A DNA stretch of 10,114 nucleotides from the NCBI GenBank assembly GCA_905480305.1, contig CAJQPV010000271.1, forward strand, positions 1 through 10,114. The letters are read 5' to 3'. The notes beneath the pieces are model-generated. The model had not been told where the DNA came from. It saw only the letters and a program-made list of their open reading frames with translations, and ran no database searches. Within the stretch, counting starts at the first letter, position 1. Every line of letters begins with the position of its first letter. Shown here piece after piece: positions 2,953 to 7,546 of this stretch. The position numbers were made by a program, and so were the translations under genes. Source of the DNA: an uncultured Gammaproteobacteria bacterium. Lineage in GTDB: Bacteria > Pseudomonadota > Gammaproteobacteria > UBA9214.

Positions 2953-4482
2953 TCAGGCAATCTGGTCATCCGCAACGTGATAGCGCGGATCTTCCATTAC
3001 ATTCACCTCAACCAGGCTGCCGGCCTTTTTTAATAACTGGCGGCATTCTTCGCTCAGATGTCTCAAGTGCAGGGTTTTTCCTGCCTTGATATATCTTTCT
3101 GCAAGATTATCAATCGCCTCAATCGCCGAGTGATCAGCAACCCGGGAATTCTGGAATTCGATAATGACATCATCCGGCTCATCTTCCGGATTAAACAGCT
3201 CCAGAAAGTTTTTTACCGAACCGAAAAACAACGGGCCATTCAACTCGTGAACACGCGATCCATGTTCATCGTCGTAGGTATTGATATTGATATGCTTGGC
3301 ATGCTCCCAGGCAAACACCAGCGCCGAAATAATCACACCCACCACCACCGCGACGGCCAGGTCGGTAAGCACCGTCACAGCCGATACCGTAATCAGCACA
3401 AAGGCATCAGTTGCCGGAATTTTTCCCATGATGCGCAGGCTTGACCATTCGAACGTAGCCAGCACCACCACGAACATGACCCCTACCAGCGCGGCCATTG
3501 GAATGCGTTCAATCAGGGGGGAGGCAAACAGGATAAACATCAACAGGAACAGTGCCGCGGAAACACCGGAGAGGCGCTGGCGTCCGCCCGAGTTCACATT
3601 GATCATGCTCTGCCCGATCATGGCACAGCCACCCATACCGCCGAACAGGCCGGTCACCGTGTTGGCGATACCCTGCCCCACACACTCACGGTTGCCACGT
3701 CCGCGGGTATTGGTGACCTCATCAATCAGGCTCAGTGTCAGCAGTGACTCAATCAGACCAACGGCGGCGAGAATGAACGCATACGGCAGGATGATAAGCA
3801 GTGTTTCAAAAGTAAACGGAACCGCAGGAATATGAAAGGACGGCAGACCACCCTTGATGCTGGCAAGGTCACCGACCGTAATGGTATCGAGGTTGAACCC
3901 TGTCACCAGCAGAGTCACGGTAATAATCGCTGCCAGTGCCGCCGGGAAACTGCTAGTCACTTTCGGCAGGAAGTAAACAACAAACAGGGTAAGCACAACC
4001 AGGCCGGAAAAAATCAGCAGCGCATCACCACTCAACCACTCCTTTACACCTTCCGGCGTGGTCACCTGGAAGTGTTGCAGTTGTGCGAGAAAGATAACGA
4101 TCGCCAGGCCATTCACAAAACCCAGCATGACCGGATACGGCACAATGCGAATAAACTTGCCGAGTCGCAACGCACCGGCACCCATCTGGAACAAGCCGGT
4201 CAGCACCACCGCAGCGAACAGGTACTCGACGCCATGCTCGGCAACCAGCGCCACCATCACCACCGCCATGGCACCGGTAGCACCTGATATCATGCCGGGA
4301 CGCCCACCGAATATGGCTGCCAGCAGACCGACCATGAAGGCGGCATACAAACCTACCAGCGGATCGACCCCGGCCACAAATGCGAACGCCACGGCTTCCG
4401 GCACCAGCGCCAGTGCCACGGTAAGACCTGACAAAACCTCATTTTGTACGCATGCACGGCAAGTGCAACCAAGCTTGAACAT
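2953..4482 (-). CDS. SulP family inorganic anion transporter with STAS domain
   Basis: This 509-residue SulP/SLC26 permease would carry an inorganic anion such as sulfate or bicarbonate across the inner membrane; the substrate cannot be decided from sequence. The membrane core spans residues 14-395, with family blocks [20 protein letters not shown] (22-41), GLYAAF (44-49), [17 protein letters not shown] (59-75) and the conserved stretch from ESLLTL (245) through [11 protein letters not shown] (281-291) to [10 protein letters not shown] (297-306). A cytosolic STAS domain occupies about 410-500, with [12 protein letters not shown] (446-457) at the usual regulatory loop. The length is typical of the shorter bacterial SulP group. 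Odd point: the amino end reads [14 protein letters not shown], placing three cysteines (6, 8, 11) just before the first helix. The start has a weak AGG six bases upstream, and no alternative start is evident. It is the first gene of a possible two-transporter unit. Confidence 0.93.
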
Positions 4483-5500: not shown

Positions 5501-5554
5501 AGAAATTGTGTCAATGCATACCATTTCAGATCGTCGTTCTCTTTGGCGACGCTA

Positions 5555-5578
5555 TCGCGGACAGGGTCCGCTCCTACA
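5555..5578 (-). repeat. REP-like palindromic unit 1 (inverted)
   Basis: Read on the minus strand this 24-base unit begins TGTAGGAGCGGA and ends GTCCGCGA. It matches unit 2 at 21 of 24 positions, with differences only in the small loop. Together with unit 2 it forms a large inverted repeat with a 14-base spacer, the arrangement of a two-REP mosaic element (BIME). The GTAGGAGCGG head is typical of REP families with a GTAG tetranucleotide. Confidence 0.8.
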
Positions 5579-5592
5579 GGTGTATCTATTGG

Positions 5593-5616
5593 TGTAGGAG
5601 CGGATCTCGTCCGCGA
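5593..5616 (+). repeat. REP-like palindromic unit 2
   Basis: The unit starts TGTAGGAGCGGA and ends TCCGCGA. Inside it, GCGGA (5600-5604) and TCCGC (5610-5614) form a hairpin with loop TCTCG. It is the mirror partner of unit 1, and unit 3 is a near-identical direct copy about 100 bp on. Confidence 0.82.
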
Positions 5617-5696
5617 CAGGGTTTTTACCCCCCCAGGCCATCCAGAGACAAGGAGATACGCCAGTTAAATTGTCAATTTCAATGCGCATCTGCATC

Positions 5697-5720
5697 TGCA
5701 GGAGCGGATCTCGTCCGCGA
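5697..5720 (+). repeat. REP-like palindromic unit 3
   Basis: A direct copy of unit 2 with a single difference (TGCAGG instead of TGTAGG at the head), so 23 of 24 identical. It begins 26 bases beyond the stop codon of the fusion gene on that gene's downstream side. Such units are mobilised by RAYT-type transposases elsewhere in the genome; no such gene is in this window. Confidence 0.8.
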
Positions 5721-5746
5721 TGTTGTCTGCCTGATAACGCAAACCA

Positions 5747-7546
5747 TCAAAACTCGAACTCCATACTCTGAAACACCTGCCCGGCATTACGCCTGGCGAG
5801 AAACTCCGCCGTAGGCAAATGCATATACGGTGACTGGTCTATCTCGTAGGCTTCCTGCAAGGCACCACCATTCTCGATAACCTCACCGATCTTGTCACGC
5901 AGATACAGCAGGTAATCGCGGGTATAAGTCGTCACGGTCGCCATATCGGTCGGTTCACCGTGACCGGGAATCACCACTTCCGCACCCAGCGCTTCGAAAC
6001 TGTCCCAGGTTTCAATCCAGGCGGCCGTATCCGTGTGCTCGAACAGCGGCAACATACGCTGGTGAAATGCCATGTCACCGGATATCACCAGCTTCTTTTG
6101 CGGCAACCACACGATAATGTCACCCGGGCTGTGTGCCGGTCCCAGGTTCAGCAATTCAATGCGCTCGCCACCCAGCTCAATAACCTTCTTGTCTTCGAAG
6201 GTAATATCCGGCATCACCACCTCGGTAGCCGCCGCCTTTTCCTTTACCCGGCCCTGCATCACTTCCAGCAGTGCGAATGACTGTGCCTCGATTTCGTGCA
6301 CCGCATCCACGTGTGCGATTACCGGCACACCCTGCTCCCGCCAGTAACCGGAACCCAGCATGGCATGGCCCTGGCCATTCTCCAGCACCACGTATTTCAC
6401 CGGCTTGTCGGTGATCTTTTTAATCTCGTCATGCAGCGCCTTTGCCAACAGGTAATTGTCGCCGGCATTCACCACCAGCACACCCTCGCTGGTGATCACA
6501 AAGGAAAGATTATTGTTATGCCCGGAATTTGCGTAGGTTCCCGGTGCCGTGGCGCCAATGGCCGACCACACCCCCGGCACAACCTCCCGGGGCAGATCAT
6601 AGAGCATCGAACCCGGCGCCTTGTCACTGTTATACAGCGCCTCACCGGTCAGGGGCGCGGCAGCAGGCGCCTCGCTCGCTGGCGCTTGCAGGTGTATGCG
6701 CATGAAACGCGCCGCTCGTTGCACCGCATCTTTCGAGGCAAGATCGTCAGCAAAGGTACGCACTGTTTCGGGACGAAAATCAAAACCGCGTCCCACGCCG
6801 GGATAGATAACCAGTTGCGCATCCTGGCCATTGTCCTGCATCACCTGCACACTGGTCTCAATCACCCGGCGTCGCTGGTATTGCTCTTCAGCGCCGATAA
6901 ACACCAGCATCGGCAATGTCAGCAGGTCGATTTCCGGTGCATAGCCATAGACCTGCTGCGGCTCGGGCGCATTCGGGTCCTGCAAATGCGGGTAATAGGA
7001 TACGTAGCAGGCAATTTCCCGCTGCTGTCGTTTGAATGTCGTTGCCACTTTAAGGGTGTAATAGCCGCCACGCGTATGCGAATACAGGCACGCCCTGTCA
7101 CTGCTGATATCAGCACGCGCCAGCAACACATCCACCGCCGCATTGACATCTTTCTCCAGTGCATAATCATGCTCAATCGGATGGGTGCCGATAAAATGCG
7201 CAGCATAGATATCCGGCGCCAGCACTACAAATCCGCGTGCGGCAACCCGCCGCACATGGCGTTGTATCCCGTCATCCAGCCCGCGGCGTCCATGCTGAAA
7301 CAATACTGCAGGGTATTTTCCGGCGCCTGCAGGACGGGCAACCAGTGCCGGCACCTCAACGCCACCACTCTGGTAACTGGTCCATGACGTTTCCACCGGG
7401 TAGTTATCCGGCACCTCGATCTGGCCGTCGGTCCACCAGGCGTCGTTCCACCACCAGTCATTGTCCTTCACATCCGTTGCAGCAACCGCATTGCCACCAA
7501 CAAACAGCACCGCGACCAGCAGGCAGTCTCTCAGCTTATTGTTCAT
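5747..7546 (-). CDS. Secreted DLH-like / metallo-beta-lactamase-fold fusion, degenerate active sites
   Basis: This 599-residue protein has a signal peptide (MNNKLRD, hydrophobic core, cut near AVA at 20-22), a tryptophan-rich patch (WWWNDAWW, 31-38), an alpha/beta-hydrolase domain of dienelactone hydrolase type (about 50-288), an alanine/proline linker (288-298) and an MBL-fold domain (about 320-555). The DLH nucleophile elbow reads SHTRGG (156-161) where GxCxGG or GHSRGG is usual, putting Thr158 at the nucleophile. The histidine motif reads YPGVGRGF with Arg253 for His, and GAEE (218-221) stands where the acid is expected. In the MBL half, HxHxDH is replaced by NGQGHA (390-395), while the later ligands His472 (GPAHSPGD), Asp491 (SGDMAF) and His529 (PGHG) remain. 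The frame is intact, so it appears maintained. AAGGGA seven bases upstream supports the start. Activity is doubtful; binding or a changed chemistry is possible. Confidence 0.85.
   Translation of the reverse strand: MNNKLRDCLLVAVLFVGGNAVAATDVKDNDWWWNDAWWTDGQIEVPDNYPVETSWTSYQSGGVEVPALVARPAGAGKYPAVLFQHGRRGLDDGIQRHVRRVAARGFVVLAPDIYAAHFIGTHPIEHDYALEKDVNAAVDVLLARADISSDRACLYSHTRGGYYTLKVATTFKRQQREIACYVSYYPHLQDPNAPEPQQVYGYAPEIDLLTLPMLVFIGAEEQYQRRRVIETSVQVMQDNGQDAQLVIYPGVGRGFDFRPETVRTFADDLASKDAVQRAARFMRIHLQAPASEAPAAAPLTGEALYNSDKAPGSMLYDLPREVVPGVWSAIGATAPGTYANSGHNNNLSFVITSEGVLVVNAGDNYLLAKALHDEIKKITDKPVKYVVLENGQGHAMLGSGYWREQGVPVIAHVDAVHEIEAQSFALLEVMQGRVKEKAAATEVVMPDITFEDKKVIELGGERIELLNLGPAHSPGDIIVWLPQKKLVISGDMAFHQRMLPLFEHTDTAAWIETWDSFEALGAEVVIPGHGEPTDMATVTTYTRDYLLYLRDKIGEVIENGGALQEAYEIDQSPYMHLPTAEFLARRNAGQVFQSMEFEF

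Follow-up and report, generated by a model that had tools for sequence, protein, structure and literature searches.

Gene organisation and domain architecture

The window, i.e., the whole stretch of 10,114 nucleotides analysed here, carries a gene on its minus strand in which a dienelactone hydrolase (DLH)-like domain is followed by a metallo-beta-lactamase (MBL)-fold half (Table 1). A first-pass annotation, made from the sequence, had described an intact 599-residue frame coding for a secreted-looking two-domain fusion. This description is confirmed by the open reading frame and by Pfam, the signal stretch being judged by eye, and the Lactamase_B match covers residues 352-529 of the fusion (E 4.4e-12). 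The genome of the window contains a single full-length copy, the sole other match being weak (19.9 bits).

Beside the fusion gene lie a gene for a secreted-looking amidohydrolase (PF04909, 4595-5524) and a SulP gene (2953-4482). The stretch that separates the fusion from the amidohydrolase gene holds, at 5549-5721, a REP-like 24-nt repeat, TGTAGGAGCGGATCTCGTCCGCGA, which occurs twice (second copy 96%) and has matching inverted arms. The amidohydrolase and SulP genes adjoin the fusion in several relatives too. As they are not generally found next to the stand-alone halves, these neighbours look like synteny, and an operon with the fusion was rejected.

With regard to the catalytic positions, T158 (in SHTRGG), R253 (in YPGVGRGF), NGQGHA, H472, D491 and H529 are as the first-pass annotation had read them. 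Its statement that the DLH half has no clear acid does not hold, E221 being at the acid position (Glu in 48/50 rows and Asp in 2/50) according to a weak second segment of the alignment to the DLH structure 3f67 (7.8 bits), in which it pairs with the Asp of GAKD. At the elbow, T158 pairs with the Ser of GHSRGG in the alignment to 8fjd. Outside the signal-like N-terminus, C153 and C180 are the only cysteines in the translation. In the MBL half, the canonical HxHxDH motif is absent, with N390-G-Q392-G-H394-A395 instead, and H472, D491 and H529 occupy what we take to be the His196, Cys/Asp221 and His263 positions of MBLs.

Table 1 Features of the fusion gene, in coordinates of the window
Feature	Position	Strand	Basis or conservation
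Whole gene, DLH-like and SoxH fusion, 599 aa	5747..7546	minus	Open reading frame intact
Signal-peptide-like N-terminus, residues 1-22	7481..7546	minus	Translation judged by eye
DLH-like domain, residues 66-283	6698..7351	minus	Pfam PF01738, E 9.5e-15
S156-H-T158-R-G-G161, Thr at nucleophile elbow	7064..7081	minus	T158 in 121/121 fusion rows and 78/78 DLH rows
Cys153, invariant	7088..7090	minus	50/50 DLH-family rows
Cys180, invariant	7007..7009	minus	50/50 DLH-family rows
E221 (GAEE), catalytic-acid position	6884..6886	minus	Weak 3f67 alignment; E in 48, D in 2 of 50
Y248-PGVGR253GFDF-R258, Arg at catalytic-His position	6773..6805	minus	R253 78/78; weak 3f67 alignment
Linker, residues 287-320, with LTGEALYNSDKAPGS	6587..6688	minus	L(T/S)GEALY also in four stand-alone lipoprotein-like SoxH
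SoxH half, residues 321-599	5750..6586	minus	54-62% identity to Paracoccus/Ruegeria SoxH-position proteins
H343-N-N-N346, invariant	6509..6520	minus	73/73 SoxH-half rows
E389-N390-G-Q392-G-H394-A395, SoxH motif at HxHxDH position	6362..6382	minus	E389, N390, Q392, H394 and A395 73/73
H472	6131..6133	minus	73/73 rows; alignment to solved MBL
D491	6074..6076	minus	73/73 rows; alignment to solved MBL
H529	5960..5962	minus	73/73 rows; alignment to solved MBL

Conservation of the altered residues

A protein search with the fusion gave 1852 matches at E ≤ 0.001 among 8000 scored, and the 120 of these that were listed all have both domains, at 77-99% identity. The first-pass annotation had raised the question of whether T158, R253, N390, Q392 and H394 are conserved among full-length fusions. 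They are: in the query and the 120 listed homologs, these residues, together with E221, A395, H472, D491 and H529, are identical in 121/121 rows, far more than chance could produce. Canonical catalytic residues, which that annotation had named as evidence against its reading, are found in none of the 120 listed fusion homologs, and the alignments run placed them nowhere else in the protein.

The same residues are present in stand-alone halves (14 DLH and 12 MBL). In larger alignments, fusions included, T158 and R253 occur in 78/78 DLH rows, and N390, Q392, H394, A395, H472, D491 and H529 in 73/73 MBL rows. The invariant arginines of the DLH half are R87, R88, R159, R225, R227, R253 and R258 (each 50/50). 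The dN/dS ratio (NG86) is 0.05-0.16 for either half against four relatives, and the fusion gene is under strong constraint. Given the 121 identical rows, the agreement of the stand-alone halves and these dN/dS values, the fusion is not a product of decay. It offers a clear example of two hydrolase folds in which the catalytic residues were first replaced and have since been fixed.

Assignment of the C-terminal half to SoxH

In a search of plasmids, a stand-alone relative of the C-terminal half matched the second of two adjacent MBL genes in three sox clusters. In the sox cluster of Paracoccus ferrooxidans, the SoxH-position gene sits after the soxF-position gene; the names SoxG and SoxH are given here on the assumption that these clusters follow the Paracoccus gene order, and not from annotation. 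The C-terminal half is 57% identical to the SoxH-position protein of P. ferrooxidans, 62% to that of Ruegeria SCSIO 43209 and 54% to that of Paracoccus SMMA_5_TC, and 57% identical to a P. pantotrophus protein from a record without annotation. The Paracoccus and Ruegeria SoxH proteins have ENGQGH in common, the next residue being Ala, or Ser in SMMA_5_TC, and the half encoded in the window has ENGQGH, H472, D491 and H529. On the strength of these identities and motifs, the C-terminal half is assigned to SoxH, and its apparently altered MBL motif is taken as the normal SoxH motif. No model named SoxH is among the NCBIfam matches of the fusion.

As SoxH normally has the ENGQGH motif, what seemed surprising in the MBL half dissolves. 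The first-pass annotation had proposed a loss in both halves of one maintained protein. Both halves do lack the canonical residues and the gene is maintained, but the MBL site was not lost inside the fusion: since stand-alone SoxH orthologs share ENGQGH, the double loss amounts to the joining of two older families. Its label of a pseudoenzyme pair misses the Sox connection described below.

Among 20 more distant MBL loci (33-48% identity), His is found at position 394 in 19 and one is canonical, and the H472 and D491 positions are both changed in two of the 19 (L154 and L157). Four further SoxH proteins from the 24 genomes with a close SoxH half keep N390 and H394; one of them has Asp in place of Q392, and one has Ser in place of A395. 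Some stand-alone SoxH proteins (L008, L009, L039, L041 and L043) have lipobox-like N-termini, with Cys followed by Asp/Glu, and the fusion-like linker L(T/S)GEALY is present in all of these except L043. A 37% SoxH relative with NTGGQDHRWLG (L176:13920-14840) is encoded close to genes for arsenate reductase (azurin) and for arsenite transport. A SoxF-like gene (L110:13129-14406), 45% identical to Ruegeria SoxF, lies about 4 kb from a stand-alone SoxH gene.

The accessible text of PMC11237559 and PMC4891895 describes the function of SoxH as unknown, and that of PMC10045233 and PMC9122950 proposes that SoxH releases sulfate from SoxY. According to the accessible part of PMC11582611, a gene called soxH in Hyphomicrobium is assigned to a PQQ alcohol cluster, so use of the name is loose.

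Distribution of the two halves

In a class sample of 369 genomes, where low-completeness genomes, including that of the window, were kept in all counts, 81 have some match to the fusion at E ≤ 1e-30. As only three candidates per genome were scored in that first scan, up to six were used for the counts of the separate halves. The DLH half occurs in 33/369 genomes (fusions included; lowest score 320.8 bits), spanning 22 families, and is discrete in this sample, the interval from E 1e-30 to 8.8e-96 being empty. The N-terminal half forms a DLH-like family of its own. A close SoxH half occurs in 24/369 genomes at ≥ 290 bits (fusions included), a cut placed at a visible gap (298.2 to 237.3 bits) in data already seen. 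The SoxH of one genome (G285) was counted despite lying in two pieces: its gene is broken at a run of unknown bases at the start of the locus (L033), and the split therefore looks like a scaffolding effect.

The fusion is found in 4 genomes of the class sample, and the other bearers carry the halves as separate genes. Both halves are present in 11 genomes, namely the four with fusions and 7 of the other 365, compared with about 1.6 expected by chance (Fisher p 0.0004, uncorrected for ancestry). No close SoxH is found in 22/33 DLH genomes, which indicates that SoxH is not an obligatory partner. The DLH half occurs in 3/299 genomes of a phylum sample, including the window's genome and a 35% relative, and in 1/240 genomes of a sample of the class of G594; a plasmid search with it gave no match at E 1e-20. 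The 35% relative (L189, genome G569, of the same class as the window) has Ser at 158 and Arg at 253, both C153 and C180 are absent from it, and its genome has soxY and no soxC match. At another locus (L105:8001-10250), the DLH half is intact in a 299-aa ORF, with the SoxH motifs GDMAFH and PGHG occurring downstream solely in different frames; this seems to be a fusion that has lost its SoxH half. Among the bearers of the DLH gene is a cultured bacterium, Thiohalophilus thiocyanatoxydans (L139). A fusion in a MAG labelled as a Halobacteria archaeon (L079) groups within the gammaproteobacterial clade, and the MAG is probably a mislabelled bin.

Physical linkage of the DLH-like protein, SoxH and sox genes

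The DLH and SoxH halves are linked in at least three forms, being fused, adjoining or in a sox operon. The SoxH tree supports a single origin of the fusion (100/100), with one stand-alone row (L089) inside the fusion clade. In one sox operon (L127, JAHEJE010000103.1), the order is soxH, the DLH gene, a thioredoxin-like gene (by eye), soxX, soxY, soxZ, soxA and soxB; the start of the DLH gene overlaps the last base of the soxH stop, and SoxX, SoxY, SoxZ, SoxA and SoxB each score over the NCBIfam cut-off. At two other loci (L122 and L137), the DLH gene comes after a rhodanese-type soxH. The DLH protein of these loci falls inside the fusion clade (99/90) and the adjoining SoxH outside it, and the DLH-SoxH pairing was thus re-made: the DLH half apparently left a fusion and then paired again.

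An N-terminal rhodanese domain was detected by Pfam in 4/6 SoxH proteins from named genomes (L121, L122, L137 and L140) and was absent from the SoxH of L089 and L127; the bearers of this domain are long stand-alone SoxH proteins. Its loop is CGxxxRSP, with the loop Cys present, and this motif was used to call rhodanese-SoxH in G193, G056, G141, G190, G015 and G325. Depending on the lineage, SoxH is therefore coupled either to a sulfur-transfer domain or to the DLH half. A partner that is fused, adjoining and in a sox operon provides a direct handle on the role of SoxH.

No sox genes lie near the fusion within the window, and a sox-gene neighbourhood is present for the relatives L127 and L172-L174. 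Besides L127, a looser case is G594, whose DLH gene shares a contig with soxY at a distance of about 14 kb; among the loci scanned, which mostly extend no further than about 8 kb to each side, no other stand-alone DLH gene was close to sox genes. The Limimaricola SoxH ortholog (L175, 58% identity) is not part of a sox cluster within the 28.8 kb shown. Some stand-alone DLH genes are beside aroG or ygiQ in conserved order (eight loci each, some being the same contig twice), and these were rejected as partners, no functional link being seen. One neighbour of a DLH gene (L037:5529-6767) partially matches the antiphage protein EruA (NF058535), far below the cut-off. A literature search, largely without subscription journals, gave no paper on a DLH-SoxH link. 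As far as the available part of PMC6413534 goes, no tie to the DLH-like family could be established for the 'Dienelactone hydrolase' of its Thiodictyon proteome table.

Co-occurrence with sox and dsr genes

The 34 control genomes, none with a strong match, were hand-picked before the soxB search. Weak MBL matches are present in three of these controls (G026, G034 and G045), each of which belongs to the nine with soxB. For soxY and soxC, 32 controls were used, G170 and G200 being exchanged for G594 and G569. The counts share ancestry and are not independent. SoxB is over the cut-off in 32/33 DLH genomes, 12/13 SoxH-only genomes and 9/34 controls, the exceptions being the window's own genome and G058, a SoxH-only genome with two contig-end fragments. 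The contrast is weaker for soxY (27/33, 11/13 and 11/32, respectively). A dsrA match over the cut-off is found in 27/33 DLH genomes, 4/13 SoxH-only genomes and 7/34 controls; as a tighter partner of DLH, dsrA was rejected, being less consistent than soxB. The window's own genome, which is 77% complete, has dsrA and no soxB, soxY or soxC match; both soxB and soxY are present in the two genomes of its genus that the sample contains. The link of the fusion to Sox is well supported.

In this one sample, soxC is scarce among DLH genomes (2/33, G019 and G194), compared with 9/13 SoxH-only genomes and 6/32 controls. Among soxB-bearing genomes, it is found in 2/32 with DLH versus 10/21 without. When the 24 SoxH genomes are divided by partner, soxC is present in 2/16 with a DLH or rhodanese partner and in 8/8 with neither (Fisher p 6e-5), or, by family, in 2/12 versus 5/5 (p 0.003); this split was drawn up after seeing the data and includes incomplete genomes. 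If the pattern of SoxH with a DLH or rhodanese partner where soxC is missing, and of lone SoxH where soxC is present, holds in a fresh sample, it yields a proposal, open to testing, of how sulfur oxidisers without SoxCD unload sulfur from the SoxYZ carrier.

Proposed function and alternative explanations

Based on these observations, we lean towards the view that the fusion is an accessory protein, presumably periplasmic, of the Sox system for thiosulfate oxidation, whose halves would act jointly on SoxYZ-bound sulfur where SoxCD is missing. The N-terminal half would be a DLH-fold partner of SoxH in which the catalytic Ser/Cys-Asp-His set has been turned into Thr158-Glu221-Arg253, and its many arginines (R87, R88, R159, R225-R227, R253 and R258) could hold an anionic sulfur group or the loaded arm of SoxY. 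In the SoxH half, a single metal on H394, D491 and H529, with H472 nearby, might replace the usual two-zinc site. This half would then cleave or transfer an S-S bond, allowing the sulfane sulfur to leave the carrier. Purple sulfur bacteria without soxCD form sulfur globules, according to the available part of PMC10301885. As the DLH genomes have soxB and are mostly without soxC, release of sulfate fits less well than a role in taking sulfane sulfur off SoxYZ. Evidence on the other side comes from the window's own genome, with no soxB, soxY or soxC match, from the 22/33 DLH genomes without a close SoxH, from the scarcity of sox genes around stand-alone DLH genes in the loci scanned, from the Limimaricola SoxH ortholog and from the two distant relatives of the SoxH half with changed H472 and D491 positions.

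A more specific proposal, which we offer tentatively and with considerable reserve, is that the DLH-like protein belongs to the truncated (SoxCD-less) Sox system as a component so far overlooked. Together with SoxH, it would strip sulfane sulfur from SoxYZ by means of a Thr/Glu/Arg anion site and the invariant Cys153/Cys180 pair, coupled to a single-metal SoxH site, with the rhodanese domain filling this role in other SoxH proteins. To our knowledge, only SoxL-type rhodaneses have so far been put forward for the removal of sulfane sulfur from SoxYZ; if the proposal is true, the DLH-like protein supplies this step.

It is also conceivable, but unlikely, that both halves are catalytically dead and merely hold SoxYZ or other Sox proteins, or tether sulfur species. 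The canonical sets are missing from both halves in 121/121 fusion rows, and the variety of N-terminal partners (DLH and rhodanese) would suit an adaptor. However, ligand-type residues usually drift in pure scaffolds, whereas H394, H472, D491 and H529 are invariant in 73/73 rows and E221 is nearly so in 50. We give somewhat less credence to a SoxB-like hydrolase, in which SoxH releases sulfate from SoxY, as proposed for Campylobacterota, with the DLH half aiding docking. Published proposals in the accessible text of PMC10045233, PMC9122950 and PMC11237559 favour it, but those of PMC10045233 and PMC9122950, as far as that text goes, concern SoxCD clusters, while the DLH genomes are mostly without soxC. 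Moreover, nearly all fusion and SoxH genomes also have soxB, and the Campylobacterota SoxH proteins are candidate orthologs.

The association with sox might instead reflect shared ancestry, the protein working elsewhere in the envelope of sulfur oxidisers. The tested genomes are related and stand-alone DLH is seldom near sox genes in the loci scanned; still, the sox operon of L127, the SoxH identity and the spread of the 33 DLH genomes over 22 families make this explanation rather improbable. Even less probable is a DLH half that is a working hydrolase, with Thr158 as the nucleophile together with Glu221 and Arg253. Positions 158, 221 and 253 are all filled and conserved, and the 35% relative has Ser at 158 with Arg already at 253, but the base position offers no His, and a Thr nucleophile is uncommon in the DLH fold. 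A single decayed copy or pseudogene, for which no support was found, can be dismissed with near certainty, being refuted by the 121/121 conserved rows and the dN/dS of 0.05-0.16. What was surprising in the DLH half stands, in a sharper form: it is a DLH-like protein with exchanged residues, linked both to SoxH and to the SoxCD-less Sox system.

Comparison with known systems

The N-terminal half shares the fold family of dienelactone hydrolases (PF01738) by profile, the nearest solved chains being 4zv9, 5xb6, 8fjd and 3f67. Its elbow position can be mapped, as can its acid and base positions, these two on a weak alignment. It departs from the DLHs in its catalytic positions, which are taken by Thr, Glu and Arg, in its invariant Cys153 and Cys180 and in its Trp-rich N-terminal segment; of the canonical Cys/Ser-Asp-His set, the acid position alone is kept, as E221.

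The best NCBIfam matches of the fusion are the quinoprotein relay zinc metallohydrolases TIGR04558 and TIGR04559, at 131 and 143 bits; the curated cut-offs (300 and 280 bits, respectively) lie far higher. On these models, the SoxH-position protein of P. ferrooxidans reaches 117 and 137 bits, and that of Ruegeria scores alike. As the fusion is under the cut-offs and SoxH-position proteins score the same, a quinoprotein/PQQ role was rejected.

Among solved MBL-fold proteins, the one closest in sequence to the SoxH half is 8d2z (E 3.5e-32), which differs in having HYHAVR at the motif position. A subclass B2 metallo-beta-lactamase, presumably of the CphA type, aligns over the active-site region and has in common with the window the Asn at 116, in what we take to be MBL numbering; the window has Gln for His118, His for Asp120, Ala for Arg121 and Asp for Cys221. 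In this numbering, the SoxH half has N, Q, H, A, H, D and H at positions 116, 118, 120, 121, 196, 221 and 263, which makes a single-metal site conceivable. A rebuilt metal site, as suggested by the first-pass annotation, may exist, made of H394, D491, H529 and H472. In persulfide dioxygenases (ETHE1-like), the 2-His-1-Asp iron site uses the first His of HxHxDH, and this position is N390 in 73/73 rows of the SoxH half, in which other ligands could form an ETHE1-like iron site.

SoxG, encoded by the gene adjoining soxH in the same cluster, has an MBL fold like the SoxH half; it has a canonical HGHPDH and matches the window's half marginally (28% over 110 aa, E 0.03). SoxH of Paracoccus and Ruegeria has the ENGQGH, GPAHSPGD, GD(M/I)AF and PGHG motifs and a signal-like N-terminus in common with the window's half. 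Known SoxH is a stand-alone protein, whereas the SoxH of the window is fused, as the C-terminal half, to a DLH-like domain.
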